From: a virus
DNA: 43,777 nucleotides
Virus record (IMG/VR): IMGVR_UViG_3300032241_003067
Coordinates: 1 to 43,777 of that record
Strand: one strand, 5' to 3'
How positions within the stretch are numbered: the stretch's first letter is position 1; every line of letters starts with the position of its first letter. The notes under the pieces are model-generated. The model did not search any database. It saw only the letters and a program-made list of their open reading frames with translations, and had not been told where the DNA came from. Positions 1 through 36,067 of the stretch are shown one piece after another. Made by a program: the position numbers and the translations under genes.

Positions 1-886
1 ATCCCGTACCGCCGTTTGTAATCGTGACGTTTGACGCCGACGGAAGCAACAATGACTGTGCTGATCCAGTTGCTTGAACCCCACCAGCCGTAGTCGGTGA
101 TGATGCGGTCCATGTTGGAACGCCAGTGTATCCAGAACCCGTTGCGGTTAATGTAATCGCAGTTACCGTCCCACCATTACTGATGTTCACCCCAGACGAT
201 CCGGGGGCAAGGTCAATGGACCCTGTACCCTTGGGTTGTAATAACATACTAATGTTGGTGTCACTGCCGATAGACGAAATTACTGGGGTACTACTGGTTA
301 TGGCGCCCGATATGGCGATATTATTGGCAAGATTACTACCAAATGTTGCAGTATTTCCCACATATAAAGCACCGGTACCGGGATTAATACTAAAACTGCT
401 TGTAGTATAAACACTCATTGCAGTTGCCGAGGCATTATTTGCACTTACAAAAGTTGGATAATAAGTAGCATTGGCAGTTTGCGCTTGAGTTTGAATATTA
501 ATTGCGTTAGTAGCGGTACCAGCACTTAATGAACCTACCGCAACCCATGTAGCAGTATTGCTTCCTGCCGTTAAGACATATCCGGTTGTACCCAATGGAA
601 TGAATGAGGTTGCACCACCACCGGTTTGAATTGGGATACTACCAATCGCTCCGCCAGCTATATTAGATGATGTGGTTGCGAATCCTGTTAATGTTCCTAG
701 AAAGGATCCGATGAAATTGGTTGCAGTTACAGTTCCGCCAAAATAGCCACCGCTGCCTACTCCGATTCCTCCGACAACTTGTAGTGCACCCGTAGTTGTA
801 GAATTTGATGTTACTGTCGAAAGAATGGTCGCAGTGGAATTAACCACTAGACCATTTTTGACTTTAAAGTCATTATGGTTTGACAT
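1..886 (-). CDS. Partial modular tail-fibre/virion structural protein
   Basis: The reading frame opens at an ATG at 886 and stays open to the left edge of the window, so the C-terminus is missing (about 295 residues seen). The N-terminus (MSNHNDFKVKNGLVVNST) is followed by a TGALQVVGGIGVGSGGYFGG module, nearly the same as modules in the next genes, and by Gly/Ser/Thr-rich beta-type sequence. A late promoter-like ATAAATA lies 42 bp upstream and AAAGGG sits just before the start. It heads a run of related minus-strand genes. By analogy with T4-type cyanophages I infer a virion surface or tail-fibre protein. There is no catalytic motif in the part seen. The left end resembles a GSGYxxxP motif also found in the protein ending at 12968. 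Confidence 0.7.
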   Translation of the reverse strand, partial: MSNHNDFKVKNGLVVNSTATILSTVTSNSTTTGALQVVGGIGVGSGGYFGGTVTATNFIGSFLGTLTGFATTSSNIAGGAIGSIPIQTGGGATSFIPLGTTGYVLTAGSNTATWVAVGSLSAGTATNAINIQTQAQTANATYYPTFVSANNASATAMSVYTTSSFSINPGTGALYVGNTATFGSNLANNIAISGAITSSTPVISSIGSDTNISMLLQPKGTGSIDLAPGSSGVNISNGGTVTAITLTATGSGYTGVPTWTASSPTTAGGVQATGSAQSLLLPSASNVTITNGGTG

Positions 887-6606: not shown

Positions 6607-9600
6607 TTATTCAATTGCCAATATGAATGGTGTCATATTAGCATATAAACTCTGAACAAATGTTCTTCCGCTTAAAACACCTGTTGCTTGGCTAATTACA
6701 AGCCCCGGTCCTATTCTAAAGTCTCCATTTTGATCTGTGCTTGTATAGAAAACCTTGCCTGCATTTAATTGTACAACCTCTTTACTTTGAACAGGATCGG
6801 CCACGCCTCTTTGAGGTAAGGCTCCATAGTTAGTACCTGCACCGACATATTCAAATAGATAACCGCTAGCACTGATGTAACTTCTTTGATAGAAGTTAAC
6901 TGTAGAACCATCTGGGAATAAGTCAGGTCTAGTAACCGTTTCTCCTAACTCTACCAAATGATAAGTTCCTGCTCTACTCCAGTAACTTAATCCACTATAG
7001 ACACTATTATAATTTCCACCTGTTTCCAAATCATAGATTAATTGTTGTAAAATTAATTTCACATCTCTTACACACTTTGTTTGGTTGTAAGAACCTAAAG
7101 ATGATAAGAAATTTACATTTACATAGGCTGCAATCTCATTGGCCAAGAAATCTAAATTATTTTGAATTAAAATAATTGCACTTCCTGCACCTTGTGGTAT
7201 TGTACCTGATGTGGTAATTTGACTTTGAGGAACTACAGCATTGGCAGCGGAAATATTTGCCGCACCTATAATATCGATCATATAACCAAATCTTAAGTCA
7301 ATAAATTCCTTGGATAAAATTCCACCTGTAACAGTATTATCTATATATTGTGTTGATGAATTACCCACTGTGGGTGTTATTTCGACATTATTGATGATAC
7401 TATCTACTATGGTATTCAAATATTCCAAACTTTGAATGTGTGCGTAAATCTGACTAACCGAGGGTCCTTGATAATATGGATCATAGTTAGCAGACAGAAT
7501 ATTCGTATTTGGTGCATAAGGGCTGTTAGCAACAGAACTTGTTTGCACAGTATAATAGCTATTGCCACAAAAATAAATTGTGAAATATGTAGGATTGGTA
7601 GGATCTCCTCCACCACTACCTAAGGCCTGATTCAGAGAAATACTATTATAGTTTACATCAGTGACCACGGTTCCTGTAGCAGCGTACCATACTCCATTGT
7701 CATCGTGTTGTCGACCAAACTGGTCTCTAATAAACACAGTATTACCGATATATACATCAGTGGTATCAATATTAACAAGTTCAATGGTTCCTGTGGTTAA
7801 TGTACTAGTACTTGGTTGTGCATTAAGAAAGCCTGCAAAATCTTGTTCATTGATGTGTCCTTCAGGAGGAATAATTTCCATTACCAGACCTATATGTGGT
7901 CTATTAGCTGTATCAGGTACAAAAACTTCTACCTGACCACTATTTGGCCAGTAACCATCAGGATAAAATTGATCTAAATAAGCCCCACCTGGAACATTGG
8001 GACTAAACGGATATGCTCTAAATGCAGGATTAAACACTGTTCCACTGAAACTTCTAGGACCATATCCTTTTGCTACTAAAGATATATCACCGAAGTTACA
8101 GTTTGAGTTAGTGATACTAGCTATTCCACCATTGTCACATTGTACACCTACATTACAGAAGATGGTAAACACACTAACCAACTGTGCATATCCATTATTA
8201 GTAACTTTTACACCAATACCACCTTGATTTAATTGTGTGAATGCATCAAATACAAACGATTGAATTGGGCTGCGATCACTGATTACAGCACCATCAATTA
8301 GTGTACCACCCATTGCACCAAGTGGATCAACTTTGCGTTCATTCCATGTATTTGAATTTCCTGTGTATTCAAGACTCAATTGTTCAACCTGTGCATTTTG
8401 TAACGGATACACTTCTGTTTTACCAAAATATAAAGTCGCATTATTTCCAAAACCTATAGTGGCCGTATCTAAACCTACTCGATAGGTATTGGTCGAGATT
8501 TGATTTAAGCTAGTCACCTTAGGTGCTATCTTTACCGAGCTACCATTTAATCCTGTCAGACCAAACAATCCTCCACCTGCATATTCTTGTGGTGCTGTCG
8601 ATGGTCCATCGTTTATGATTGTGGTTACAATATTGAAATTACGAGTAACCGCTTCTTGAGGCATATAGGTATCACCATACTGGAAAAATGTATTAATCAC
8701 TTGAGTAGCCACCGTGCCTGTGATACTAGTTACCGTATTATTGGCAATAATTTGTAATGCAATATCTCTTACATAATTAATAGCCGCCGTAGTTGTAGTT
8801 AATTGTCCTGACACATAATTGTAAGCTTGATTCCAATAACTTAGTCCTGCTTCTATAGTCTTTTGATTTCCACCTAAGAGTATATCTTGACTAACAGCAT
8901 CTACAATTAACCCAACATCTCTATAACATAATTCTTGATTGTAATTAAAACTATTTGAATTATATTTGTTATCTAAATAGGCTATCATTTCTGCCACAAT
9001 GAAGGCCTTATTAAATTCTATTATATTATATGCATTTTTAACATTACTAACCGAAGACTGTATTAAACTGATCGGTCCTAATGGAGGTGCTGCGCTTGGT
9101 CCAGATGCTAGAATATCTGTAATTGTTGAAAATATACTAGAAATTTTAGAGGTAGTATCGGTGTCGCCTACAGGTAAATTTAGCACAGGTTTGACAACAG
9201 TTTGTAGAGGAGCATACTGATTACCTAGTACTAATGTTTCTGCTAAATTGGCCATAAAATTAAAGGCATCAATTGTGGCATTTATTTCACTGGGTATAAC
9301 TGTTGCGCTAGATAAGTTTGTGTAATAACTTAATCCGCTTTGAATACTTTGTCTGTTTCCGCCGTACAATAAATCAAACGCTATACTGTCTATGATATAA
9401 CCAACATCACGAGAGCATGTAGTTGAATTATAATTCAATGTTGGATAATTTGCTGTGATAAATCCTATTATCTCGCCTTTTAAATAATCGGTATTTGCTA
9501 ATAATAAATTATAAGTATCTTGTACACTAGGGAACATACTGGGTGTTCCACCGTTAGGTACAATCAAATCGGTCCATCCTATAGTTCTTCCATTTAATAT

Positions 9601-12342
9601 GGTTATAACATTAGAAAATTCAGAGGTTAATATAGCAACCTCGTTGGCGGTTGCATAGTTACTTGATGTTGTTTGAACACCATTTGTATATCTCGTAATA
9701 CCATTAATTGCATCTATATCGGGTGTAATATTTTGGACAACTTTAATACTTAAATCTCTTAGATAAGATATTGCCGCGATTGTAGCAGTAATTTCACTAG
9801 GAATATTGCCTGTGTATCCACCTTGAATATAATATTGTAAGGCTGCGAATGTGCTTTGACTATTATCGGTGGTAGGAAACAATAAATCGGCTGCGACACT
9901 ATCTAAAATAATTCCACCATCTCTTTTACATTTAATTTGATTATAAGGTAAAGATTTGCTTGGATAGCATAAATTATAATTTATGTAATTTAGTGTGTTC
10001 TCTTGTATAAATGTTCTATTGGCCTGTAACAGTATTTCTGCACTGACAAATGCAGCATCGGGTCCGGGTCCTACATACATATCTGGTGCTGCATCAGGAC
10101 CATTTGTTATAATGTTACCAACGATATCGAAAAGATTACTGATAGAATCGTTTGCAATATCTCCACCGATTAGATTTGAATTAAAGACCTGTGGTGTATA
10201 AGGAATATTTGCAGGTGGACTTAAAACTGTGCAAGTAGAATTTACAGCAACCTGTTGACATAATGTTTTAATATAATTTATTGCACCAACTGTTTGAGTT
10301 TCTTGTCCAGCAATAACGCTAGTTACGCCTCGATAATATGCTTGACCACTTTCGATGCTTTTTTGATTTCCTCCAAATGCCATATCATAGCACATGTTTT
10401 CGACTAATATTCCTGCATCTCTAAAACAAAGTTGCTCATTATATTTAAAATCAGGATAATTTGCGTTTACCCATGCTACAGCTTGATTTTGAATAAACGG
10501 TTTATTGGCTAATATCAATGTTCTTGCATTAAAAAACCCGGGATTTTGTTTTCCTGCATTAATACTTTGTCCTATGCTTAATGTGCCTTGTTCAACTGTT
10601 ACAACAATGGATGCGGTATTTGCTTCCCATGATCCCATTGCAACAGCTTGAGGTACCTGAACAGTTTGATTTGGCAAGAACATCGTGCCATCGTTTAACC
10701 ATGGGCCACTTTGATTGGTACAGTTCTGAATGTAAGGCGATTGAAATAAGTCTATTCTCTCACTACCAGTTAGAGGTGGGAATGCTGCACAATATGCACC
10801 TCTGTTAAATCTTTGATCATATTGACCAGGTAGTCTACCGCTGCGGCCATTAAGAAAATTCATGTAGTTCAAATAACAACCGCTGTTCATATGAAACAGA
10901 TCTTGAGTCTTATTAATGGGCTCTATAAATGTTGTACGAATGTCGCTGCCTCTTACACTGGTGTAAGGTTTCATTTCCAAAGGATTATTTTCTAAATATC
11001 TTCCTGCAGAAACTAAAATTTGTGTACCTGGTTGATAATAAGGACTTTTCATTGCACCGCCAATGGTCCTACATGCTCTGCTAGGATCCATTGCACGCCC
11101 GTCATTGGTATCATCACCATCCATGGTCACATATAGTGTATTTGTAACCATTGGTGCAGTTCCAATAGGATTAGAACCACGAACACGAATATCACCAAAA
11201 ATATCAACTATTCCGTTTCCATCCGAAGGACTTAAGGTAATATTACTGTTTGTATTACCTAAAAATCTTGTGTAGATATTGTTAAGATATGAATCTCTCC
11301 AACTAACTACACTATTACCTATAGTACCTGTATTGTCTGCACTGGGTAAAATATTACCGCTTGACACAATATCCTTGGCTATTCCTATACCGCCACCTAC
11401 AACTAATGCTGCAACAGATGTAGATATAGCATTTAATGTATTAGTAAATGTTGCCAATCCATTAACTGTAGTGTTTCCTCCTACATAAACATCTTGACTA
11501 ACACCTATGCCACCTAAAACTACAATACTTCCTGTTGATGTTGATGTAGCATTATCTGTACTGGTTACTAAAATTCTTTCTAATTTAAGTTTTCCTGTGT
11601 AAGGATTATATTTTAATCCGTTATTTGGACCTGTTAAATTATTTCCATTTTCAGTATCAGCATAAAGTTGTGCACCTGAAGAAATTAATCCGGATGCATT
11701 TGTAAATGTAGGAAAATAATCATCATTGTTATTTGTCACAACAACAGTAACAGCGGTAGCAGTAGAGGCCGTATTAGCTGCTGCAATTCTACCAAAAATA
11801 AATCCTCCTACAGCTAAATCTTTTTCAATACCTACACCACCTGAGAAATAGGCCTGGCCCATTTGTCTTAATTCTGTAGTACTATATAAAGTTTGATCTA
11901 TGGTTACAGGGTCGTTTGTGCCATAGACTATGCTACCGACATTACTAGCAGTATTTGTAATAGTTGCTGCATAGTTTCCCGAACTATCTAAAATATTTAA
12001 AGGACCTGTTAAATTTAAATTATTAGTAGTTAGATCAAACTTTGTTGTGCTTTTAATTACAGATTGATCTGTGTTTACAGTAAATAGTTGAGTTGCAAGT
12101 GTAAATGTTCCTGTGCTTTCAATATTGGTGTCATTGGTTTGAATGGCAACTTGACTAGAACTTTGAATGGTAGTTTGATCTGTTTGAATATTAACTGTAC
12201 TCGAACTTATAATGTTAGTTTCGTCTGAAGTTATATTTGTTTGATTTTGATTATTTTGAGTAAAGGTAATTAGACCCGAATTAGAGGTTACACTTCCACT
12301 GAGTGGTGCTATATTTCTTGTACCTGAAGTTCTACTAGCCAT
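6607..12342 (-). CDS. Giant virion structural protein (1911 aa) with five repeated modules
   Basis: Residues 1-400 are Ser/Thr/Asn-rich with two GGIGV/GGGIGI modules like the neighbouring fibres. Residues 404-560 look like a pectate-lyase-type beta-helix start (VTMDGDDTNDGRAMDPSRAC, GRYLENNPLEMKPYTSVRGS). Five copies of an alpha-rich module follow, at about 609-700, 771-866, 946-1040, 1107-1200 and 1725-1797. Each has F(I/L)xxE/Q, a Tyr/Asn stretch, C-x-RD, then D-(L/M)-xx-GGNxxSIxxGxxYY. The Cys residues are 639, 805, 976, 1139 and 1757. Between copies 4 and 5 is more beta-helix-like sequence. The C-terminus (KVFYTSTDQNGDFRIGPGL) resembles ends of other large cyanophage virion proteins. It has a late promoter and AAAGGA upstream. 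I infer a long tail-fibre or baseplate-associated protein; no catalytic residues could be assigned. Confidence 0.75.
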   Translation of the reverse strand: MASRTSGTRNIAPLSGSVTSNSGLITFTQNNQNQTNITSDETNIISSSTVNIQTDQTTIQSSSQVAIQTNDTNIESTGTFTLATQLFTVNTDQSVIKSTTKFDLTTNNLNLTGPLNILDSSGNYAATITNTASNVGSIVYGTNDPVTIDQTLYSTTELRQMGQAYFSGGVGIEKDLAVGGFIFGRIAAANTASTATAVTVVVTNNNDDYFPTFTNASGLISSGAQLYADTENGNNLTGPNNGLKYNPYTGKLKLERILVTSTDNATSTSTGSIVVLGGIGVSQDVYVGGNTTVNGLATFTNTLNAISTSVAALVVGGGIGIAKDIVSSGNILPSADNTGTIGNSVVSWRDSYLNNIYTRFLGNTNSNITLSPSDGNGIVDIFGDIRVRGSNPIGTAPMVTNTLYVTMDGDDTNDGRAMDPSRACRTIGGAMKSPYYQPGTQILVSAGRYLENNPLEMKPYTSVRGSDIRTTFIEPINKTQDLFHMNSGCYLNYMNFLNGRSGRLPGQYDQRFNRGAYCAAFPPLTGSERIDLFQSPYIQNCTNQSGPWLNDGTMFLPNQTVQVPQAVAMGSWEANTASIVVTVEQGTLSIGQSINAGKQNPGFFNARTLILANKPFIQNQAVAWVNANYPDFKYNEQLCFRDAGILVENMCYDMAFGGNQKSIESGQAYYRGVTSVIAGQETQTVGAINYIKTLCQQVAVNSTCTVLSPPANIPYTPQVFNSNLIGGDIANDSISNLFDIVGNIITNGPDAAPDMYVGPGPDAAFVSAEILLQANRTFIQENTLNYINYNLCYPSKSLPYNQIKCKRDGGIILDSVAADLLFPTTDNSQSTFAALQYYIQGGYTGNIPSEITATIAAISYLRDLSIKVVQNITPDIDAINGITRYTNGVQTTSSNYATANEVAILTSEFSNVITILNGRTIGWTDLIVPNGGTPSMFPSVQDTYNLLLANTDYLKGEIIGFITANYPTLNYNSTTCSRDVGYIIDSIAFDLLYGGNRQSIQSGLSYYTNLSSATVIPSEINATIDAFNFMANLAETLVLGNQYAPLQTVVKPVLNLPVGDTDTTSKISSIFSTITDILASGPSAAPPLGPISLIQSSVSNVKNAYNIIEFNKAFIVAEMIAYLDNKYNSNSFNYNQELCYRDVGLIVDAVSQDILLGGNQKTIEAGLSYWNQAYNYVSGQLTTTTAAINYVRDIALQIIANNTVTSITGTVATQVINTFFQYGDTYMPQEAVTRNFNIVTTIINDGPSTAPQEYAGGGLFGLTGLNGSSVKIAPKVTSLNQISTNTYRVGLDTATIGFGNNATLYFGKTEVYPLQNAQVEQLSLEYTGNSNTWNERKVDPLGAMGGTLIDGAVISDRSPIQSFVFDAFTQLNQGGIGVKVTNNGYAQLVSVFTIFCNVGVQCDNGGIASITNSNCNFGDISLVAKGYGPRSFSGTVFNPAFRAYPFSPNVPGGAYLDQFYPDGYWPNSGQVEVFVPDTANRPHIGLVMEIIPPEGHINEQDFAGFLNAQPSTSTLTTGTIELVNIDTTDVYIGNTVFIRDQFGRQHDDNGVWYAATGTVVTDVNYNSISLNQALGSGGGDPTNPTYFTIYFCGNSYYTVQTSSVANSPYAPNTNILSANYDPYYQGPSVSQIYAHIQSLEYLNTIVDSIINNVEITPTVGNSSTQYIDNTVTGGILSKEFIDLRFGYMIDIIGAANISAANAVVPQSQITTSGTIPQGAGSAIILIQNNLDFLANEIAAYVNVNFLSSLGSYNQTKCVRDVKLILQQLIYDLETGGNYNSVYSGLSYWSRAGTYHLVELGETVTRPDLFPDGSTVNFYQRSYISASGYLFEYVGAGTNYGALPQRGVADPVQSKEVVQLNAGKVFYTSTDQNGDFRIGPGLVISQATGVLSGRTFVQSLYANMTPFILAIE

Positions 12343-14018: not shown

Positions 14019-15815
14019 ATGCAGAATTTACAAACTCTTAAAGAATCATTAATTTCATTATTTTCTGGAAAAAATACCAAAGCATATTCTAAATTAATAT
14101 TATCAAGACCTGAGTTACAAAAACAGATCAGTGATTATCAACAACAAATAAACACACAATCTATATCCGAAACATTATGGTGTATCATTAATGAATCGTT
14201 GCCGTTAAAGTGTGAATGTGGAGGTATGAGGCAATTTAACACATTTAATTTAGGATATAGAGAATTTTGTGGATCTAAATGTTTGGCAAAAAACCAAGCA
14301 CATAGTAAAAAAATATCTGAGATATGGAAAAATAATCCAGATAAGTTACAGTCAATGATCCACAATCGAAATAAGACAAATTTAAAAAAATATGGATTCG
14401 CAAATGCTGCTCTTAATTCCCTAGTAAGAGAAAAAACAAAACAAACAAATTTACAACGATACGGAACCGAATTTCCTTTACAATCTGATCAAATTCAAAA
14501 AACAATTCGTAAAAGAACATTAGACAAATATGGGGTGGAATATCCTTTTCAGTCTCAAACAATACGGCAAAAATCTCTAGATACATTTAATAATAATCAT
14601 CCAAATTTATCAGATAAAATGCAGTTAGCAAGACAAACATTTATAGATAAGCATGGTGGTAACCCGTTTTCTGTTCAAGAAATTAAAGATAAAATTTATG
14701 ATATTCGCAAAGAAAAATATGGATATGTGCATGCTTTACAGTCACATCTTTCAAAAGAAATTGTAGATATTTTAGAAAATAAAAATTTGTTTATTGAAAA
14801 TTTACAAGGTCTAACTTTAGCAGAGTCAGGAGAAAAATTAGGTGTTAGTGCAACAACAGTTGCCAGGCGTGCTGCAAAATATAATTGTCGAGAAATATTT
14901 TCCGTTTCATCTAGATCAAAATGGGAATTTAAAATTAGAAATTTTTTATTAAGTTTAGGATTAATAGAAGGTATTGATTTTATTCAAGGTGATAGATCTA
15001 TACTAAATGGAAAAGAATTAGATTTTTACTTTCCAAAAATTAAAGCTGCAATTGAAGTGGGTAGTGTTTTTTGGCATTCCGAAATATCTGCTGGTAGAAA
15101 AGACACATATCACTACGAAAAATGGCAGCAATGTCAGAAGTCTAATATTAACCTTTTTCAATATTGGGACTTTGAGCTGAGCAAATCCTGGCAGGTTATT
15201 GAATCTAAAATAAAATATCTATTTGGTAAAATTGATAAAACAATAGGGGCAAGAAAGATTAGAGATTTTAAAATTGTTACATTAAATGAAGAAAAAGAAT
15301 TCTTATTTAAAAATCATATACAAGGATTTTCAGGAGATCGAAAAAAAACATTCGGTGCTTATTATGAAAATAAACTAGTAGGGGTTATGGCGTTGGCAGT
15401 GCGACCGTCAGGAGTCGAGATTGTAAGATATGCTACAGATTTAACAGCTAATTATCCAGGGCTATTCAGCAGATTATTAAAATACTCACTACATTGTCTT
15501 AATATTAAACACACAGATGTTTTTTCTTATAGCGATAATCGCCATAGTTCCGGAAATGTTTATCAACAATCGGGATTTGAATTGATTCGTACTTCTTTAC
15601 CAAATTATTATTATACACAAAATTACCATAATATTGAAAATAAGAAAAAATTTACCAAACAAAAAATTAAATCAAAATTTAATATTCAAGTAGGTGATAG
15701 AACCGAATGGCAAATCATGCAAGATTTAGGTTATGACCGTATCTGGGATGCAGGAAAGAAACTTTGGAAAATAACTTATAAACAAAAACCCGCCGAAGCG
15801 GGTTTTGTTCAGTGA
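14019..15815 (+). CDS. Free-standing homing-type endonuclease, zinc finger plus Vsr-like (EDxHD) domain
   Basis: This 598-aa protein is encoded against the surrounding late genes. Residues 65-95 hold a CxC...C...C zinc-binding pattern (LKCECGG, FCGSKC). About five YG-centred repeats follow (residues 120-245: KKYGFANAAL, QRYGTEFPLQ, DKYGVEYPFQ, KYGYVHALQ). Near residue 270 is a helix-turn-helix-like stretch (LAESGEKLGVSATTVARR). The nuclease core is ELDFYFPKIKAAIEVGSVFW followed by HSE, H-Y-E-K and FQYWDFE, matching the EDxHD/Vsr-like pattern of phage homing endonucleases. The C-terminal ~170 residues resemble the acetyltransferase-like domain that accompanies this family. It is a paralogue of the protein at 34310-36067. 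The last codons run through the gp23 terminator. It probably promotes its own transfer at the gp23 locus. Confidence 0.8.
   Translation: MQNLQTLKESLISLFSGKNTKAYSKLILSRPELQKQISDYQQQINTQSISETLWCIINESLPLKCECGGMRQFNTFNLGYREFCGSKCLAKNQAHSKKISEIWKNNPDKLQSMIHNRNKTNLKKYGFANAALNSLVREKTKQTNLQRYGTEFPLQSDQIQKTIRKRTLDKYGVEYPFQSQTIRQKSLDTFNNNHPNLSDKMQLARQTFIDKHGGNPFSVQEIKDKIYDIRKEKYGYVHALQSHLSKEIVDILENKNLFIENLQGLTLAESGEKLGVSATTVARRAAKYNCREIFSVSSRSKWEFKIRNFLLSLGLIEGIDFIQGDRSILNGKELDFYFPKIKAAIEVGSVFWHSEISAGRKDTYHYEKWQQCQKSNINLFQYWDFELSKSWQVIESKIKYLFGKIDKTIGARKIRDFKIVTLNEEKEFLFKNHIQGFSGDRKKTFGAYYENKLVGVMALAVRPSGVEIVRYATDLTANYPGLFSRLLKYSLHCLNIKHTDVFSYSDNRHSSGNVYQQSGFELIRTSLPNYYYTQNYHNIENKKKFTKQKIKSKFNIQVGDRTEWQIMQDLGYDRIWDAGKKLWKITYKQKPAEAGFVQ
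15785..15806. terminator. Bidirectional terminator between gp23 and endonuclease
   Basis: A perfect 9-bp stem AAAACCCGC / GCGGGTTTT with loop CGAA. On the minus strand it follows the gp23 stop by 26 bp and is trailed by TTTTTGTTT. On the plus strand it is trailed by TTTTG and lies inside the last codons of the endonuclease. Confidence 0.85.
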
Positions 15816-20279: not shown

Positions 20280-20286
20280 TATTTAT
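20280..20286 (-). promoter_or_regulatory. Late promoter-like site overlapping gp20 stop
   Basis: The minus strand reads CATAAATACAATTATG. The gp20 TAA stop is part of the ATAAATA core and the next ATG follows at 20274, so any transcript would be nearly leaderless. Confidence 0.4.
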
Positions 20287-23200
20287 GCTGGAGGAGCACC
20301 TCCTGGAGCACCACCTCCTCCTGGAGCACCACCTCCTCCTGGAGCACCGCCTTCCCCTGGAGCACCGCCTGCGTCTCCTCCACCTGGCGGAGGAGGAACA
20401 TCTCCTCCACTCATTGCTGCTGTATCTGCTGCCATACCATTTGCTGTAATTCCTGCCCCTCTAAGTTCACTACCGGCGCTTAAATATTGATCCTCGTTGA
20501 CATTCTCTTCACGCCACATTCTTTCATTTTCGGCAACTTCTTCTGCAGTCATTCCTAAAAATCTCTTCATGGCAAATCTTTTACTCATAAATTGAATGGC
20601 TACCATTGTATTAAATGTGTTGACTCTTGCTGTATCCATTTCTGCCTGACGATAAGCAGCAAAATTTTGAGGAGGATTAAATTTTATTTCAAATAGATTA
20701 TTGTCAACATTTATACCCTGTGTATGCAAATACAATTTAAATTCGTTATCAAATGGATCATTTAATAAACTCTGTAATCGTTCACAGTATTTGTTAAATC
20801 TTAATTCTTGGATGAATGCTGTTCCAACTCTTCCATCATTGAAGTTAGATCCTCCGTCGTCGGACCCAGTAGGGAGGTAACTGCTAGGAATCCGTAAAGC
20901 ACGAAACAACTTATTGGTAAAATATCGTAGATCATCGATTTCTCCTAGGTTTTGACCACCTTGTAATATCTCAACTTTTGATCCGCGGCCTTCTGCTGTT
21001 TGAGGGAAAAAGTAATCTTCATTTATTGAATTTTTAACAAATATACCACTATCGATGGCAAAAGTATGGAATGCATGCCATTTTTCAGTTCCATCTATAG
21101 TAATAGTACCCGTATCTCTGCTAGCAACTTTTTCAATTTTTACAATCTTATGATTGAAATTATCAATTTCTTTAACAAAAGTTTTCCAATTTTTGTAACC
21201 ATATTTTGCTAATAACTTATCTAATTTACTGTAGCCAAATTTGTTAAAATTAATTTTGCATTGAGAATTTTTATAATCAAGTGCATTACTATTATATTCT
21301 TTTACTAATTTAAGTAAATCACTATCAGTATCGCATAGCGCAAGTACATCATTTTTATTAGTAATCCCAGATTTAACTTTATCTGCAACTCGTTGCAACA
21401 TATCAAATGTTAATTTTAACTCTTGATTTTTAATTTTAATTCTAGATTCCAAATTAGTTAATAACTGTGCTTTAGCTGTTGGATTATTTTCTAAATAATG
21501 TTTACGAGCAACAGAGGCATTCTTTTTATAACTTGCAGCCACTTTAGGATCATTACTTCGAGCCCACACCGATTGTTTTTGAGCTGATCGAATATTCCAC
21601 AATGCAGTTAATCGACTTTCGTTGGACATATTTTTCCAATATTCTTTCAATGTATTGGATATTTTGCCGGTCATTTCCACTCTATATTCGTTAGACATAG
21701 TATCCCAGAAATCTTTTTTCTGTGCAGCATGATACAATATATGATCCTCTTTATTCATGTAAGTCAAATTTCTTGGATCATTATTAAATCTATTAGAATC
21801 TTTATGGTGAATTACAGTTTTTGTCTTGGTAATATTTTCTTCTAGATAAGTGAATTCTTGATGTTTATTTCTAGATCTAAAAAAATCACCAACCATTCGA
21901 TGTGTCCATTTCCAGGATTTTGATGCATGGTCCCATACTTGTTGATATTCATTTCCGTTAGATGCAATTGCCTTTTGTTGTGTATTAAAAGAAATCAAGC
22001 TATCATTAACTGTTAAATCTTTTGCCTGAACAAATCCTTTACCAAATACCGGAATTTTATGATCCGGTGTGCAAATTAATTCTTTACCGTTATCAAAAGT
22101 TAATTTAATAACTTCTGCATCTTTTCTAGTGACCCCTGCCCAATTAATCACACCCGGAACAACTTCACCTGTTTCAGGATTACAACTATATGCCCAATTC
22201 TCTTTTCCGGCATCGAACTCTTCGATGAGTTCAGATAAAGTAAGAGTTCTACCATCTAATAGTGGGATAAGAGTAGTTAGGTCTAAACATAACGGGTTAT
22301 AACTTGCGTCAACAACACTTTGAGCTCCTCCGGTGACACTGGGAATTCTTCGTTGATTTACCTCATTTTTAACACGCTCAACGAAACTCATAGCTAGGTG
22401 GCTTGGCATGTTACCTACATCAATATAAAATACTCGTCTTTCTGGAGCTCTTTGAATACGATAGATTAAAATCGAATCTTCTAAAAGTTCCTTTTGTTTG
22501 AAAACTTTAAAAATACTTTCCATTAAACTGTTACCAAATGGAAAATTATTATCTAGACCTTCACTCATACTAATATGAATTACATGTCTAGCATCTATCG
22601 CATATTGATTTTGATTTTGACTAAATCTGCTGCTGTTGGCCGTGGTTGGAAAACTTCCCACCATACCACGACTACCACCTGCACCACCTTGCCCTGAACT
22701 ATATCCTCCCCCAAATTGACTACCACCGCCTTGTATATTTGTGGGTTGAATCGCTGTTGTTGCCAGTGTTTCTAAATTAGGATTAAAATCTCTAATGTGA
22801 TACTGTTCAGGGTTTTTACCATCACTTTCATTAACAATAATTTTATCAACTTTGGCAGGATCTATATATAACCATGCTTGTGTTTCGGGATCTCGAACAA
22901 AGAAACTATCACCGTACTTCATGGCATTACGAACAATTTTAAACATTCGAATATTAAATTTGTTCAGTTTAGACCATTGCTGTAGATATTTTTTAATGAT
23001 TTTAATTTCTGTTTGTGTGGCTTGATCTTTGAAGAAAATTTGAAATGGTGTTCCATTTTCATCATTCTTTTGAGTACAAAATTCCGCTAGAATATCAAAT
23101 GCAGCATTTACCTCACTATCCGTGTCCATGGTGTCGTATTGACCATATCTTTCTAATCTGTTAGGATGCCCTGCATAAACATCAGGCAGATAACTCGAAT

Positions 23201-23306
23201 AGTTCAATCTACTTCCGTGGGCACTTGAATATGAGCTCATAGCTCCACTAACAGGACTTAGTTTTCCACTAACATTAACAGGTGTAAAGAATTTTTTCCA
23301 TGACAT
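20283..23306 (-). CDS. 20: Portal vertex protein gp20 interrupted by an intein
   Basis: The ORF is 1007 aa. The exteins (residues 1-339 and 760-1007, 587 aa joined) match T4 gp20 (524 aa). They include ERYGQYDTMDTDSEVNAAFD, SEGLDNNFPFGNSLMESIFK, YRIQRAPERRVFYIDVGNMP and GGQNLGEIDDLRYFTNKLF. gp20 forms the dodecameric portal used for DNA packaging and tail joining. The intein (residues 340-759) sits just before the SINEDYFFP segment, in a conserved part of the portal. There is a Gly-rich insertion near residues 192-215 and an unusual Pro/Gly/Ala-rich tail of about 40 residues at the C-terminus. The latter would project from the portal. The gene overlaps no neighbour and lies eight bases from the next gene on each side. 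Confidence 0.95.
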   Translation of the reverse strand: MSWKKFFTPVNVSGKLSPVSGAMSSYSSAHGSRLNYSSYLPDVYAGHPNRLERYGQYDTMDTDSEVNAAFDILAEFCTQKNDENGTPFQIFFKDQATQTEIKIIKKYLQQWSKLNKFNIRMFKIVRNAMKYGDSFFVRDPETQAWLYIDPAKVDKIIVNESDGKNPEQYHIRDFNPNLETLATTAIQPTNIQGGGSQFGGGYSSGQGGAGGSRGMVGSFPTTANSSRFSQNQNQYAIDARHVIHISMSEGLDNNFPFGNSLMESIFKVFKQKELLEDSILIYRIQRAPERRVFYIDVGNMPSHLAMSFVERVKNEVNQRRIPSVTGGAQSVVDASYNPLCLDLTTLIPLLDGRTLTLSELIEEFDAGKENWAYSCNPETGEVVPGVINWAGVTRKDAEVIKLTFDNGKELICTPDHKIPVFGKGFVQAKDLTVNDSLISFNTQQKAIASNGNEYQQVWDHASKSWKWTHRMVGDFFRSRNKHQEFTYLEENITKTKTVIHHKDSNRFNNDPRNLTYMNKEDHILYHAAQKKDFWDTMSNEYRVEMTGKISNTLKEYWKNMSNESRLTALWNIRSAQKQSVWARSNDPKVAASYKKNASVARKHYLENNPTAKAQLLTNLESRIKIKNQELKLTFDMLQRVADKVKSGITNKNDVLALCDTDSDLLKLVKEYNSNALDYKNSQCKINFNKFGYSKLDKLLAKYGYKNWKTFVKEIDNFNHKIVKIEKVASRDTGTITIDGTEKWHAFHTFAIDSGIFVKNSINEDYFFPQTAEGRGSKVEILQGGQNLGEIDDLRYFTNKLFRALRIPSSYLPTGSDDGGSNFNDGRVGTAFIQELRFNKYCERLQSLLNDPFDNEFKLYLHTQGINVDNNLFEIKFNPPQNFAAYRQAEMDTARVNTFNTMVAIQFMSKRFAMKRFLGMTAEEVAENERMWREENVNEDQYLSAGSELRGAGITANGMAADTAAMSGGDVPPPPGGGDAGGAPGEGGAPGGGGAPGGGGAPGGAPPA
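21030..22289 (-). mobile_element. Intein with HNH homing endonuclease in gp20
   Basis: This 420-residue insertion begins with Cys340 (LDLTTLIPLLDGRTLTLSEL) and ends at Asn759, followed by Ser760 as the +1 residue. Block B is ICTPDHKIPV (TxxH). Block F/G is WHAFHTFAIDSGIFVKN then S; the penultimate residue is Lys, not the usual His. The central endonuclease has an HNH motif at about 497-526 (TVIHHKDSNRFNNDPRNL, then KEDHILYH), preceded by HRMVGDFFRSRNKHQEFTYL. A further ~170 residues with a possible DNA-binding role precede block F. Cys1, TxxH, terminal Asn and Ser+1 suggest an active splicing element. Confidence 0.92.
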
Positions 23307-29660: not shown

Positions 29661-29943
29661 TTTTTCTTTTTTTACCTAATCCACTGGTGTTTCTGTATTT
29701 TTGTTTTTTATATTCTTTTTTTGTTTGTTTGTTTATGGCAACTTGTTCTCTATAAGCGGCCAATGAAGCCTTTTTTAGTTCCGATTCTAATTCACTTAAC
29801 GACCGAAGATATTTTTTAAGACTAAGTTGACTTCCATAACCGCATCTTTTTACAAAGATACAATGATAATTATGCAGATGAACTCTTGCCTCGACATATT
29901 TTGAATATAGTTCTTTGTAAATTTCTAATGATTTATTCAACAT
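29641..29943 (-). CDS. Small basic hypothetical protein (100 aa)
   Basis: The protein starts MLNKSLEIYKELYSKYVEAR, is mostly helical, and ends in a strongly basic tail (KQTKKEYKKQKYRNTSGLGK). It overlaps gp46 upstream by 11 bases and the GIY-YIG gene downstream by 20 bases, as expected in a tightly packed operon. No family recognised. The basic tail suggests nucleic-acid contact, which is an inference from composition. Confidence 0.55.
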   Translation of the reverse strand: MLNKSLEIYKELYSKYVEARVHLHNYHCIFVKRCGYGSQLSLKKYLRSLSELESELKKASLAAYREQVAINKQTKKEYKKQKYRNTSGLGKKRKNVDVPK

Positions 29944-31927
29944 AATCTACATCATTGTTATAGCTGGTGAACCCATTTTGTTTTACCACATGCAAAACAT
30001 TATTTACACGACCCACTAACTCGTCTTTATGGCTGATTAGATAGATATTTTTATTTCTTTCTCTGGCCATTTTCTTAAGTACAGCAAGACCTGCTTCAAC
30101 ACCGGCACTATCCATACCTGCATCTATCAGTTCATCGATGAAAAGTAAATTAATACTTTGATATAACCCTTCCCAAACATCTCTAAAAGCAAAACTCATT
30201 GAAAGTATTAATCTATTTCTTTCCCCTCTACTGAGATTATCAAAGTCTAGATCCTGCCCTAGCTGGGTAATTTGAACACTTAGATCATTAAGGAACAAGA
30301 CCTGATGAGGTAGTCCTAATTTGTCAATATAGTAAGTTAGTCTTTGATTAAGATAGGTGAGATTTTGATCAATAATTTTTTTACGAATAAAACTGTCTTT
30401 GTTTGTTAATAACTTATACAAAAATTCTTGATGATCTCGATATCTCGATAATAAATTAATATTGTTCCAATCGATAGTTTGAATAGCTGTTTGTTGTAAT
30501 TCTTGAATTTGTTCTGCATAAGGATTACTTTCCTCAGCTTTGGCTATTAATTGTTTCTCTAAACTGATTAAATTATTTTTATGACCTAGTGCTTCGGCCT
30601 CTGTATCATAAAATGTAATAGGTTTGCGAGGTTGTTCACCAATCTTTGACAATTCTGAAGCGATCTCTTGCAAATCATCTAGCAGTTTATTTCGATATTT
30701 TTCTGTTTCCTCTCCCTGTTTGATAATTTCATTCATCATTTCCTTGTGTTTATGATCGTGAAGATCTTGTTCACAAGCAGGGCATTTTTTATTTTTAAGT
30801 TTTTCAACCTCTTGTTTATTTTTTTCAAAAGCTTTATCAGTTTGACTTAGGGCAGATTCTAATGTGGCCTTTTGTCGATTGAGATTTCTGATTTTGTTAT
30901 CATTATCATCCCACAATTTTAAGGCCGTATGTGCTGCCAGCTCTGCTTCGATGTCGACTGATTCCAGTTTTAAAATAGCACGACCGAGGTTTTCTAATTC
31001 TGTTTGATGTTTAGTTTCCCAAGCAGAACTTTTGAGCTGCAAACTATCGATACTTTTTTGTACATTTTCGTTGGCTGTCTTAATTGCTGAAATTTTTAAT
31101 TCTTCCGATTGAATAGAATCTTTGGTTTCTTTTATTTGTGCTTTTAATGCCTCAGATTTTGTACTTAATAGAGTTATACCCAATAATTGCTCAATAACTT
31201 CCCTCTGATCTGCGGCACGCATACTAAGAAAAGGTTCGGTATAAGTGTTTAGTGCCACAAGATGTTTGAACATAGTATGGCTCATCTCCAACATATCTTC
31301 AATGGCCTTTTGGGTTTCTCTACTGTCACCTTGGCTTTCGTCGTCACTTTCTTCAGTTTTTAACTGATTGTCATTAACAAAAAGCTTAAGTATATTAGGT
31401 TTACGACCTCTTTCGATACGATATTTGTTACCGTTTTTTTCAAATTCAACAGTAACCAACATGTTCTTACCATTAATTTTGTTTATTAAATTTTCTTTTC
31501 GAATATTTGTCAATGCCTGCCCATACAAAGCATAGCTTAAGGCATTGATGATTGTGGTATTATGCGAAAGAATACCGTTTGTATAAAATCTGTGATCATT
31601 GGATTCTACGGTGACATCATACATGTTTTCTTCTTTATCAGAAACATGTATAGATGAAATTTGTTCTGGTCCGTTGATAGTTTGAATTGTCGATCCAATT
31701 TGAAGATTTTTAACGAATATTTCGTTATGATCTTGATCAAATACGATATGATCATCTGCACACTCAAGGAATTTTTCTGATTGTGTTTTAATGGTCCACA
31801 CTTTGTATGGAACTGTTTTCATTATTTTAGAAATAGGATGCCATCCCGAATCTGTTTCGATCTCTAGGTTATTCAGATCTAAACTATCGATAAATTTTCT
31901 GTCTACTGTGTTAGAAATTGTATGCAT
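29933..31927 (-). CDS. 46: C-intein plus main part of gp46 (SbcC/Rad50-like)
   Basis: Residues 1-123 are the C-terminal piece of a split intein, ending GILSHN. From Thr124 the sequence is gp46: TTIINALSYALYGQ continues the Walker A motif. C382-PA-C385 inside a long coiled coil is the Rad50-type zinc hook. NLSRGERNRLILSMSFAFRD is the ABC signature, and NLLFIDELIDAGMD is Walker B with ISHKDEL after it. gp46 with gp47 resects DNA ends for recombination-dependent replication. This ORF lacks the P-loop start, which is encoded separately at 33086-33244. Joined exteins give 594 aa, close to T4 gp46 (560 aa). A stop lies two codons upstream of the ATG at 31927, so it is a separate ORF. There is no clear ribosome site. 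Confidence 0.93.
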   Translation of the reverse strand: MHTISNTVDRKFIDSLDLNNLEIETDSGWHPISKIMKTVPYKVWTIKTQSEKFLECADDHIVFDQDHNEIFVKNLQIGSTIQTINGPEQISSIHVSDKEENMYDVTVESNDHRFYTNGILSHNTTIINALSYALYGQALTNIRKENLINKINGKNMLVTVEFEKNGNKYRIERGRKPNILKLFVNDNQLKTEESDDESQGDSRETQKAIEDMLEMSHTMFKHLVALNTYTEPFLSMRAADQREVIEQLLGITLLSTKSEALKAQIKETKDSIQSEELKISAIKTANENVQKSIDSLQLKSSAWETKHQTELENLGRAILKLESVDIEAELAAHTALKLWDDNDNKIRNLNRQKATLESALSQTDKAFEKNKQEVEKLKNKKCPACEQDLHDHKHKEMMNEIIKQGEETEKYRNKLLDDLQEIASELSKIGEQPRKPITFYDTEAEALGHKNNLISLEKQLIAKAEESNPYAEQIQELQQTAIQTIDWNNINLLSRYRDHQEFLYKLLTNKDSFIRKKIIDQNLTYLNQRLTYYIDKLGLPHQVLFLNDLSVQITQLGQDLDFDNLSRGERNRLILSMSFAFRDVWEGLYQSINLLFIDELIDAGMDSAGVEAGLAVLKKMARERNKNIYLISHKDELVGRVNNVLHVVKQNGFTSYNNDVDYVE
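31559..31927 (-). mobile_element. C-terminal fragment of a split intein (IntC, 123 aa)
   Basis: IntC begins with ATG31927. It contains the segment LEIETDSGWHPISKIMKTVP, block B (LECADDHIVFDQDHNEIFVK), block F (MYDVTVESNDHRFYTNG) and block G (ILSHN). The terminal His122-Asn123 are followed by Thr124 of the extein. Because block B lies here and not in the N-fragment, the break is near the intein N-terminus, unlike the common split site between blocks B and F. Confidence 0.92.
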
Positions 31928-32961
31928 TTTTTAATTGTTTCGTCTTGATTTTTTTTAAATTCGGATTCCCAGACTACTAAGACATTATACCCGTTATCTC
32001 TCGCGAATTGCAATTTTTGTTGATCCAAATCCCATTTATTTTTTGCTGAAATTTTAGTTCTGGGATTTATGAAATCTTCGGAATAATATTTTGGGTTTGG
32101 GTGCCAAAAGTCTCCATGATATTCGATAATTTTTTTATTATACATTATATCATATACATATTGTTTTTTATTTTGTTGAAGTAATGAAAATTGTGTTTCA
32201 ACTTTTATTCCTGATGTTAATAATCTTTCCACAATGAGTTTTTCAGCCTTTGAAACAGTTATTCCTTTTGACAATTTAGATCTATTGATTCTTGCTTTTT
32301 CTTGTTCAGACTTACTATTTAAAGTTGCTTGCCACCGATCTTGTCTCCGTTTCCAAATTTCGATACCTTCAACCTCTCCATATTTTTCTATACAAATTTT
32401 TTTTGAGAAAAATTTTTGATTATTTGATAACAATTTTTTAGCTTCATCAATTGAGAAACCTCGTGCAATATAGTATTCGACGCATCTTTTAGATGTTATT
32501 CGTCGAACCACTGAAGATTTACTTGATATAGCCCCCGACTTATTATTTTTATTTTTAGTTTCAACGGCTAGTCTTATTGAATCTTCTTCAGTATAACCTT
32601 TCTTTATCCAGTATTCTTTTCTAATAGGTCTGCGGCTGTTTCTTTCAAAATCTGCTTCATCGACGGTATAATAAGTATTAGTTGCGGGATTTATTTTTGA
32701 TGTCCAAAATTCTTGGCTATAAACACTCTTATTGTTTTTCTGCTTGTTTTCTTTTGACTTAACATATGCCTCGCTAGCATCCCAACCTCTAGATAACCAA
32801 TAGCCGGATGTGTGTTTTGATAATTTCGTTGTTAAACCCAATCGAACTCTTATAAAATGTTCTATTAACTTTTTATTGTTATCGATATCTGATTCGAGTA
32901 CTTCTGATAACATTTGTTGATAGATGTTGGGTTTAAGGTTTCTAATAGTCTTATCCAACAC
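31903..32961 (-). CDS. Vsr-like (EDxHD) homing endonuclease between the split intein halves
   Basis: This 352-aa protein has three motif repeats in the N-terminal half (YWLSRGWDASEA, YWIKKGYTEEDSIRLA, YYIARGFSIDEAKKLL), probably DNA-binding. A C-terminal nuclease core follows: VYDIMYNKKIIEYHGDFWHP, then W-DLD-Q-K and GYNVLVVWESEF. That matches Vsr-like nucleases used by phage homing elements. The start is a GTG at 32961, 10 bases after the N-intein stop. The frame remains open for another 20 codons upstream, across the end of the N-intein, so its true start or a +1 frameshift is open. The 3' end overlaps the C-intein ORF by 25 bases in another frame. The location between the intein halves fits the published fractured-gene arrangement. 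Confidence 0.85.
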   Translation of the reverse strand: MLDKTIRNLKPNIYQQMLSEVLESDIDNNKKLIEHFIRVRLGLTTKLSKHTSGYWLSRGWDASEAYVKSKENKQKNNKSVYSQEFWTSKINPATNTYYTVDEADFERNSRRPIRKEYWIKKGYTEEDSIRLAVETKNKNNKSGAISSKSSVVRRITSKRCVEYYIARGFSIDEAKKLLSNNQKFFSKKICIEKYGEVEGIEIWKRRQDRWQATLNSKSEQEKARINRSKLSKGITVSKAEKLIVERLLTSGIKVETQFSLLQQNKKQYVYDIMYNKKIIEYHGDFWHPNPKYYSEDFINPRTKISAKNKWDLDQQKLQFARDNGYNVLVVWESEFKKNQDETIKKCIQFLTQ

Positions 32962-32971
32962 TTCTTTGATG

Positions 32972-33085
32972 TTATCTTCGACACTGTTGTTCCAACGCGG
33001 AATTGTACAATTCTCCCATGGTTAATTCAGTTATTTCACCTGTTTTGGTGTTTCTAACTTTTACTACGGTATTTATACCAACACA
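32972..33085 (-). mobile_element. N-terminal fragment of a split intein (IntN, 37 aa)
   Basis: It begins with Cys54 (TGT at 33085-33083) immediately after the Lys of GTGK and carries only block A (CVGINTVVKVRNTKTGEI). It ends with QQCRR and a stop. At 37 residues it is close in size to the short N-fragments of atypically split inteins such as AceL-TerL, and much shorter than the usual ~90-100. Confidence 0.9.
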
Positions 33086-33244
33086 TTTCCCTGTACCGTT
33101 TCGGGAACCAGTGTCGACACCACCGAGATCTAAATTGCTACCTAATACAAGAGTAAGGTTTTCTTGATCAAAATTTACAGCTTGAGATTGGTTGCCCACA
33201 CTCATGAAGTTTTTAATTGTGATATTTTTTAATCGAAACATCAT
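32972..33244 (-). CDS. 46: gp46 N-terminus fused to N-intein
   Basis: Residues 1-53 (FRLKNITIKNFMSVGNQSQA, then SRNGTGK) are the start of gp46 and stop in the Walker A motif after GTGK. Residue 54 is Cys, and residues 54-90 (CVGINTVVKVRNTKTGEITE, LTMGELYN) are the N-terminal piece of an intein. The ORF ends at TAA 32972. The ATG overlaps the gp47 stop codon (ATGA), as in intact gp47-gp46 operons. On its own the product has no ATPase; it needs trans-splicing with the C-intein-gp46 protein. Confidence 0.92.
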   Translation of the reverse strand: MMFRLKNITIKNFMSVGNQSQAVNFDQENLTLVLGSNLDLGGVDTGSRNGTGKCVGINTVVKVRNTKTGEITELTMGELYNSALEQQCRR

Positions 33245-34309: not shown

Positions 34310-36067
34310 TCAACGATTCTCGGTAAAAACAAATAATAATTGACCACAATCCCAAATTCGTTGATAGCCATGGTTATTCATATTCGCTATCTCACTTTTG
34401 TTTTCGTCAAAATTTACTAGTTTAGATTTTAATGTATGTTTTTGCCATTGATTTCTGGTACCGGCATATTGACCATTTTTAGTAACATAAAAATAATTAG
34501 GAGGACTTTGATGAACAAGAGTAAACCCTAATGCTGAGTAGAGATGGCCAGATGACCATCGAAGATTACAATAACTAATCACTGTTTCGTTTTTGTCTTT
34601 GATATTTTTTAAAAAATACGATAGTAATTTACCTGCCGCCCCGGTTACGGAGGTATTTTTTAGACAGCAAAATCTAAGTAATTCCCACCCGTACTTTTTA
34701 TTAAATCTACTTTTACCAAAAGTCATTAAAGCATATAGTTTTCCATTTTGATCTGTTAACCCTAAATTTATCTTACTAGTGCAATCGCCTTGTAAATGAT
34801 TTTCATTTAAAAAAATAGATTTTGTTTGTGTATTAATTTCTTCAACTTTTAGTGTTCTTGCAAAGATTTTTTCATTTTGTTTTAATTTTTGTCTAATTTT
34901 AGAAATAATGATATCGAAATTTTTATTAACCTCCCAGTCGAAAAATTGCCATAGTTCTATTCCTTTTTCTTTACACATAGATAGTTTATTCAAATGATAA
35001 AACTTATCTTTCCCTTGTCCTTCGTTATGCCAATAACCGCCATTTATCTCTATAGCTAAATTTATTTTGGGAATAAAAATATCTAATTCATAAGGGTAAA
35101 TAATTTTACGATTGTTTTTTAGATAATCAATTTCAATGTTGTCTAGATAGTCTGTGATACATCGTTCTTCACTGGAAGAAAAATGTCTAATAATTGGAAT
35201 TTTATATTTGTCAAAATATTTACAAAGATTACTTGAACTAATTCCTAATTCTTTTGAAATCTCGCCCACAGTTTGACCTGCTTTATTTTTTGATTCTAAC
35301 CAGGCAGGGTCATTAAGTCGCTCTAATATTTCTGTTGAATAATATTCAAGTTTTCTACTGTTACCTGCTTTTGATGCAATATCGCTATTTGACATAGCAT
35401 TTTCAAAACCATATTTTTCAATATTAGTTTTTTTAATTTTTTCTTTAACTTCACTGGATAAAAGACTACAAGTTGTTCCATATCTTTGTAAGTTTGTATT
35501 AATAATTTTTTCTTTTATCGATTCTAATTTACTAGGATTGTCAACCCCATATTTTAATAACCATTGCTGTTTAGTTTGATTTAAAATATTTTGATTTTTA
35601 AAAGGATGTGATGTTCCGTATTTTTCGATATTGGTATTTTTTACTCTTTCGTAAAATTCAGAAGTTTTTGAATAATGTTCAACCCCGTACTTGTCTAATG
35701 AAGTATTTTTAATTTTTTTAACAAATTCCTTGGTTTTTGAATAATGTTCAACCCCGTATTTTTTTATGGAAGTTTCTTTCCTTTGAGAAACGGAATAAGT
35801 ACTGGAACATTTTTTCGAACAATATACTCGATATTCACGGCGGTCGGCATGCCAGGACAACTTGTTACCACATTTACATAGTGGAATCTTGTCGATTTGA
35901 TTTAACGCATGATATAATATTTGTCTTACATTGTTGGTATTCAGATGGTGACCTAGTGAAATTAATTCTGGATATTCTTTTATATCACTAAACAAGAGGT
36001 ATTTCCTCTTGTTTAGATTTTGATATATCTCTTGATTATTGTTCTTCGAGATTTTCGTCATCACCAT
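34310..36067 (-). CDS. Second free-standing zinc-finger/Vsr-like endonuclease (585 aa)
   Basis: It has the same architecture as the protein at 14019. A zinc-binding pattern CKCGNK and YCSKKCS lies near residues 64-90. Six YG repeats follow (KKYGVEHYSKTKEF, DKYGVEHYSKTSEF, EKYGTSHPFKNQ, LKYGVDNPSKLE, QRYGTTCSLLS, EKYGFENAMS). A helix-turn-helix-like VGEISKELGISSSNLCKYFD comes next, then the nuclease core ELDIFIPKINLAIEINGGYW with HNE, H-LNK and QFFDWE. A C-terminal domain with ENHLQGD, LMTFGKSR, RFCCLKNTSVTGAAGKLLSY and GFTLVHQSPPNYFY resembles an acetyltransferase fold. The start (ATG 36067 or 36061) lies inside the 3' end of gp55 in another frame. It separates gp55 from gp47, as expected for an inserted homing gene. 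Confidence 0.8.
   Translation of the reverse strand: MVMTKISKNNNQEIYQNLNKRKYLLFSDIKEYPELISLGHHLNTNNVRQILYHALNQIDKIPLCKCGNKLSWHADRREYRVYCSKKCSSTYSVSQRKETSIKKYGVEHYSKTKEFVKKIKNTSLDKYGVEHYSKTSEFYERVKNTNIEKYGTSHPFKNQNILNQTKQQWLLKYGVDNPSKLESIKEKIINTNLQRYGTTCSLLSSEVKEKIKKTNIEKYGFENAMSNSDIASKAGNSRKLEYYSTEILERLNDPAWLESKNKAGQTVGEISKELGISSSNLCKYFDKYKIPIIRHFSSSEERCITDYLDNIEIDYLKNNRKIIYPYELDIFIPKINLAIEINGGYWHNEGQGKDKFYHLNKLSMCKEKGIELWQFFDWEVNKNFDIIISKIRQKLKQNEKIFARTLKVEEINTQTKSIFLNENHLQGDCTSKINLGLTDQNGKLYALMTFGKSRFNKKYGWELLRFCCLKNTSVTGAAGKLLSYFLKNIKDKNETVISYCNLRWSSGHLYSALGFTLVHQSPPNYFYVTKNGQYAGTRNQWQKHTLKSKLVNFDENKSEIANMNNHGYQRIWDCGQLLFVFTENR

Follow-up and report, generated by a model that had tools for sequence, protein, structure and literature searches.

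A class 1 HNH intein in the T4-type portal gene gp20, a probable homing element in a likely intein hot spot

We analyzed a 43,777-nt stretch of viral DNA, IMG/VR record IMGVR_UViG_3300032241_003067, positions 1 to 43,777 (hereafter the window), in which the portal gene gp20 is interrupted by an insert that is very probably a class 1 HNH homing intein (Cys1, Asn-terminal, Ser+1), at a position designated site a. The original prediction of a contiguous 420-aa intein with Cys1, TxxH, HNH nuclease, terminal Asn, and Ser+1 at a conserved gp20 site was borne out at its exact coordinates, 21030-22289. The intein is more common and more mobile than that prediction supposed, and its interest lies in the probable hot spot and retargeting more than in the one insertion. 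We consider it probable that gp20 is an intein hot spot in which one HNH family was retargeted several times inside the gene, to four sites in 36 residues, giving individual portals with two or three inteins. In the same reading, the lineage at sites a and c exchanged the usual penultimate His and block F Asp for mainly Lys and Thr, a possible alternative drive for Asn cyclization.

The gp20 ORF encodes 1007 aa, and the intein occupies ORF residues 340-759, in-frame and contiguous, ending in Lys419-Asn420 followed by Ser+1 (site a, YNPL/S, where the slash marks the junction). The Pfam Portal_T4 match falls in two stretches flanking the insert, and the insert itself matches Pfam Intein_splicing (5.7e-11), the NCBIfam intein N-terminal region TIGR01445 (3.4e-8), the PHROG HNH endonuclease phrog_7545 (3e-8), and, below its curated cut-off, Pfam HNH_3 (4.6e-4). 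Excision of residues 340-759 leaves a portal of 587 aa that aligns without a gap at YNPL-SINEDYFFP to the portals of Pseudomonas phage PA5oct and Sinorhizobium phage Phosso, which lack an intein. The head genes around gp20 lie in a T4-like order.

The class 1 residues are present, namely Cys1, block B TxxH (T74-P-D-H77), C-terminal Asn420, and Ser+1, and across 27 aligned site-a and site-c inteins Cys1, T74, H77, H408 (block F), and N420 are invariant (Table 1). Cys1 was found in all 44 distinct site-a inteins examined. The penultimate His that is common but not obligatory in class 1 is absent from the window intein, which has Lys419 instead. Three other assignments were rejected: a class 3 intein would lack Cys1 and carry Cys at block F position 4, while the insert has Cys1 and, at the assumed F:4, Thr; a split intein does not agree with a single uninterrupted ORF; and a chance ORF does not agree with purifying selection and a frame open in all 44 distinct site-a inteins.

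Table 1. Features of the window portal gene and its intein, and intein sites in gp20 numbered by window extein residue.
Feature	Position	Strand	Evidence
gp20 portal gene (N-extein, intein, and C-extein, stop included)	20283..23306	-	Portal_T4 2.5e-102; phrog_213 portal 1.1e-104
N-extein, portal residues 1-339, ending ...DASYNPL	22290..23306	-	
Intein, 420 aa, gp20 site a	21030..22289	-	
C-extein, starting Ser+1 SINEDYFFP	20286..21029	-	
Cys1, N-terminal splice-site nucleophile	22287..22289	-	unchanging in 27 aligned inteins
Block B TPDH (T74, H77)	22059..22070	-	T74, P75, H77 the same in all 27 inteins aligned
Core of the HNH motif, intein residues 161-187 (HHKDSNRFNNDPRNLTYMNKEDHILYH)	21729..21809	-	Pfam HNH_3, PHROG HNH; motif in 77/78 site-a loci
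Blocks F and G (DTGTITIDG..HTFAIDSGIFVKN), including H408, K419, N420	21030..21116	-	
Ser+1 of C-extein	21027..21029	-	Ser in 44/44 distinct site-a inteins
Site d	after residue 328		
Site a	after residue 339		
Site b	after residue ~350-352		
Site c	after residue 364		

In an AlphaFold2 model of the intein (pLDDT 87.3, pTM 0.70), a long helical insert separates N- and C-terminal parts that are rich in beta structure. At E<=1e-3 the model matched 46 PDB chains, nearly all of them inteins or hedgehog Hint domains, with the NrdJ-1 intein (8ubs, 2.7e-7) as the top fold match and also the best by sequence (2.3e-8). The insert is predicted from this model to have the Hint fold expected of a class 1 intein.

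Scanning viral contigs with the window intein as a single query recovered 15 related loci, and a profile scan recovered 238; the 80 best of these were retained, and every one lies in gp20. As lower bounds that are not convertible to prevalence, at least 44 distinct inteins occupy site a in contigs of uncultured viruses, and at least 120 contigs carry a DNA pattern marking the empty site, with gp20 uninterrupted in 120 of the 120 listed. Every occupied site-a locus is metagenomic, and two of them (L196, L197) hold shorter inteins of 365-387 aa. Among the matches listed, the closest exteins to those of the window, L124 (82% identity) and L138, are both intein-free. BLASTN of the window against L124 breaks at window 21026/22287, with the L124 bases adjoining (8050/8051), and a near pair of occupied and empty loci (L174 and L039) has the same clean break at site a and no target duplication. 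Since both alignments break at the intein ends, the element is a clean 1260-bp insertion. The original prediction had proposed looking for insertion at the same site in other gp20 proteins and for intein-free gp20 in related phages, and these scans supplied both.

Of 2205 gp20-matching phage records, none reached 80% coverage of the 1007-aa query; the isolate records inspected (the top ones and an evenly spread set) gave two-piece matches of extein length only, as for an intein-free gene. A profile scan of 84,980 prokaryote genomes for a bacterial reservoir gave 151 pattern matches and no relative, using two peptide patterns that remote relatives could escape.

Occupancy of site a was mapped on a gp20 tree of 130 distinct portals, 37 occupied and 93 empty. 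At least 26 changes of occupancy are needed, a figure that combines gains and losses and that recombination inside gp20 could raise, and 22 of them are forced by supported (starred) branches. With shuffled labels the mean was 32.3 changes, and occupancy is therefore weakly clustered. Several pairs point to horizontal transfer. Loci L001 and L002 share 96% aa and 94% nt identity in the intein, compared to 58% aa and ~60% nt in the exteins, and L174 and L181 share 96% aa in the intein versus 71% aa in the extein. In L001 and L002 the endonuclease part is near-identical (dS 0.07) while the splicing part has a dS of 0.78, a contrast that suggests exchange within the intein. Both domains are under purifying selection: in close pairs dN/dS is 0.06-0.16 over the intein and 0.06-0.24 over its endonuclease part. 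Of 78 site-a loci, 77 retain the HNH motif, and L189 has an altered one. The G+C content is lower in the intein than in its own exteins in 37 of 37 cases. Some metagenome contigs may be assembly chimeras; many independent contigs agree. These data indicate that the intein family jumped repeatedly between related phages. From the occupancy changes, the conflict between intein and extein identities, and the low dN/dS, we conclude that the site-a intein is, as judged from sequence, a maintained and horizontally moving homing intein, active or recently active.

The same intein family was found at four or more gp20 sites within 36 residues (a, b, c, and d; Table 1). Double inteins occur at sites a and c (L191, L192, L206), a and b (L204), d and a (L214), and b and c (L229, L233), and three inteins (a, b, and c) lie in a single portal, the partial 1141-aa ORF of L259, over a span of ~30 extein residues; these counts do not come from automated motif counting, which undercounts. 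Short inteins without a full HNH domain are present at sites b, c, and d. Other inteins occupy ~5 further sites in divergent gp20s, near residues 76, 259, 271-272, 284, and 406, positions that leave out site j of divergent gp20s. Separately, intein-like inserts in the divergent gp20s of L256, L267, L274, L298, and L300 lack a Cys or Ser where their N-terminal boundary is expected (e.g., APM/PVWKNTPIPLLDG). A quick tree of 80 inteins, unrooted and so giving no direction of site change, needs 5 site changes, compared to a possible minimum of 4 and a shuffled mean of 28.7, by which measure of sequence relatedness site specificity is mostly inherited and retargeting rare. The site-a inteins of L259 and L269 fall among site-c inteins on starred branches, as does the single site-d intein.

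Lysine precedes the terminal Asn in 43 of 44 distinct site-a inteins and in 36 of 51 at site c, and none of these 44 and 51 inteins has a penultimate His. The original prediction was right that the residue is Lys and not His, but its suggestion that Lys may slow Asn cyclization is weakened, as conservation in 43 of 44 suggests that Lys is a functional trait of the lineage and not a sign of decay. Splicing without the penultimate His is known (Chen 2000, as cited in PMC4031507; Sun 2005, as cited in PMC8529194), and the concern over slow cyclization is thus unproven. In the window intein Thr seems to stand where block F usually has Asp. Where block F is readable, Asp goes with His in 4 of 4 inteins (site b type), and Thr or Cys goes with penultimate Lys, Gln, Phe, Tyr, Arg, and others. 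Because the pairing of Asp/His versus Thr/Lys follows one clade, and position 4 of block F was assigned by motif rather than structure, we treat it as a lead only.

In the course we propose, the 1007-aa portal precursor would be made first, Cys1 and Ser+1 would transfer the N-extein, and cyclization of Asn420 would release the intein. The ligated portal of normal length, 587 aa (predicted peptide ...DASYNPLSINEDY...), would then assemble as a 12-mer. The transfer pattern suggests that the HNH domain would cleave a co-infecting relative's intein-free gp20 at the YNPL/S codons or close to them, and repair of the cut allele would copy the intein in. This gp20 stretch is strongly conserved, so the element could move between phages with portals 40% different.

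Other readings of the insert were weighed against this one. It could be an old, vertically inherited intein that splices but no longer moves, its endonuclease decaying; the altered HNH motif in L189, the 365-387 aa inteins of L196 and L197, and the short forms at sites b, c, and d are what such decay might leave behind. The low endonuclease dN/dS in close pairs and the motif retained at 77 of 78 loci speak against this reading, however, as do intein identities far above extein identities in several pairs and the empty sites of the nearest relatives among the matches listed, and we find it improbable. It is less probable again that the insert stays in place, as a domain of a longer portal or as a switch spliced under some condition only. 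Conditional splicing exists for some other inteins and the penultimate His is missing here, but the exteins join to match intein-free portals without gap or loss, the splice residues are invariant even though close relatives do without the insert, and 420 additional residues would be hard to fit in a 12-mer ring.

The metagenomic origin of every occupied site-a locus would also suit an assembly artifact, and a group I intron might be taken for an intein. Against both stand an in-frame insert free of stops, whose protein sequence is conserved across 44 distinct inteins of many samples, dN/dS that is low throughout, and the predicted Hint fold, which leave this explanation with hardly any likelihood. 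A mobile, splicing homing intein is the reading we prefer.

Additional elements were observed in the window and in other records. The gp46 gene (SbcC-like, 29933-33244, minus strand) is broken at its P-loop: the ORF at 32972-33244 runs ...SRNGTGK/CVGINT... into a ~37-aa N-intein, the ORF at 29933-31927 opens with a C-intein ending GILSHN/TTIINALSYALYGQ, and a stand-alone endonuclease-like ORF (31903-32961) sits between the halves. This arrangement resembles that of an atypically split intein whose N-half is short. The window also has two free-standing homing endonucleases from a single family (phrog_3339, DUF7487), at 14019-15815 (+) and 34310-36067 (-); L124 lacks the first, with window 13936/15784 aligning to L124 2796/2800. 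The 1911-aa ORF at 6607-12342 (-) has a Pfam Phycobilisome match at residues 1130-1204 (27.9 versus a cut-off of 22.2 bits, E 2.6e-6), possibly by chance. In Bacillus phage SP-15, SP15_022 (L017), whose product is given as hypothetical and which lies near the annotated terminase gene, has an unannotated intein (VHN/C) upstream of a P-loop GLGKST motif.

In uncultured T4-like phages inteins are common in a structural gene of the virion, and such portals may be overlooked or given a wrong size by annotation pipelines and gp20 marker surveys. The original prediction also suggested possible hindrance of PCR surveys. Insertion between conserved blocks could have this effect in principle, but the presumed core sequence of a gp20 forward primer in common use has no match in the window within 3 mismatches, and for the window phage primer mismatch would thus precede intein length as an obstacle. 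The natural set of empty and occupied alleles provides material for homing tests between phages. With several sites in a single gene, HNH intein retargeting is directly accessible to testing, and the conserved Lys/Thr pair is relevant to how inteins function without a penultimate His.

A structural gene had been considered an unusual target for a phage intein. The open-access literature describes inteins in terminase, polymerase, and reductase, and we found in it no report of a T4-type gp20 intein (subscription papers and InBase lie outside this scope, and priority is uncertain); the isolates inspected had none either, and to this extent the view holds. Its strong form is ruled out by the viral-contig scans, in which gp20 is a frequent, multi-site target in uncultured T4-like phages, and is countered by Kelley et al. 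(2016, PMC5050341), who reported six portal (PORT) inteins in mycobacteriophages of cluster C1. Those are likewise phage portal inteins but belong to cluster C1 portals, while the present family is in T4-type gp20. The likeness drawn here is by description; in a tblastn search over 50,697 phage records, no mycobacteriophage appeared at E<=1e-3.

LR756508.1, an uncultured huge phage of 484 kb, also carries inteins in a T4-type gp20. Its three are at window-extein positions ~259, 272, and 406, with none at site a, and the 458-aa HNH intein is a detectable relative (31.6% identity over query residues 1-246). In this unannotated record (locus L018, 143734-152540) the gp20 ORF encodes 1387 aa with inteins of 150, 141, and 458 aa. 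The best solved relative by sequence and fold, NrdJ-1 (PDB 8ubs), shares the Hint splicing domain, to which the match is confined, but is a split intein named for ribonucleotide reductase, unlike the contiguous gp20 intein. From fractured phage genes, Dassa et al. (2009, as cited in PMC8228797) reported split inteins with free-standing endonucleases; these are likewise phage inteins coupled to homing endonucleases, whereas the gp20 intein is contiguous and has its HNH domain inside.
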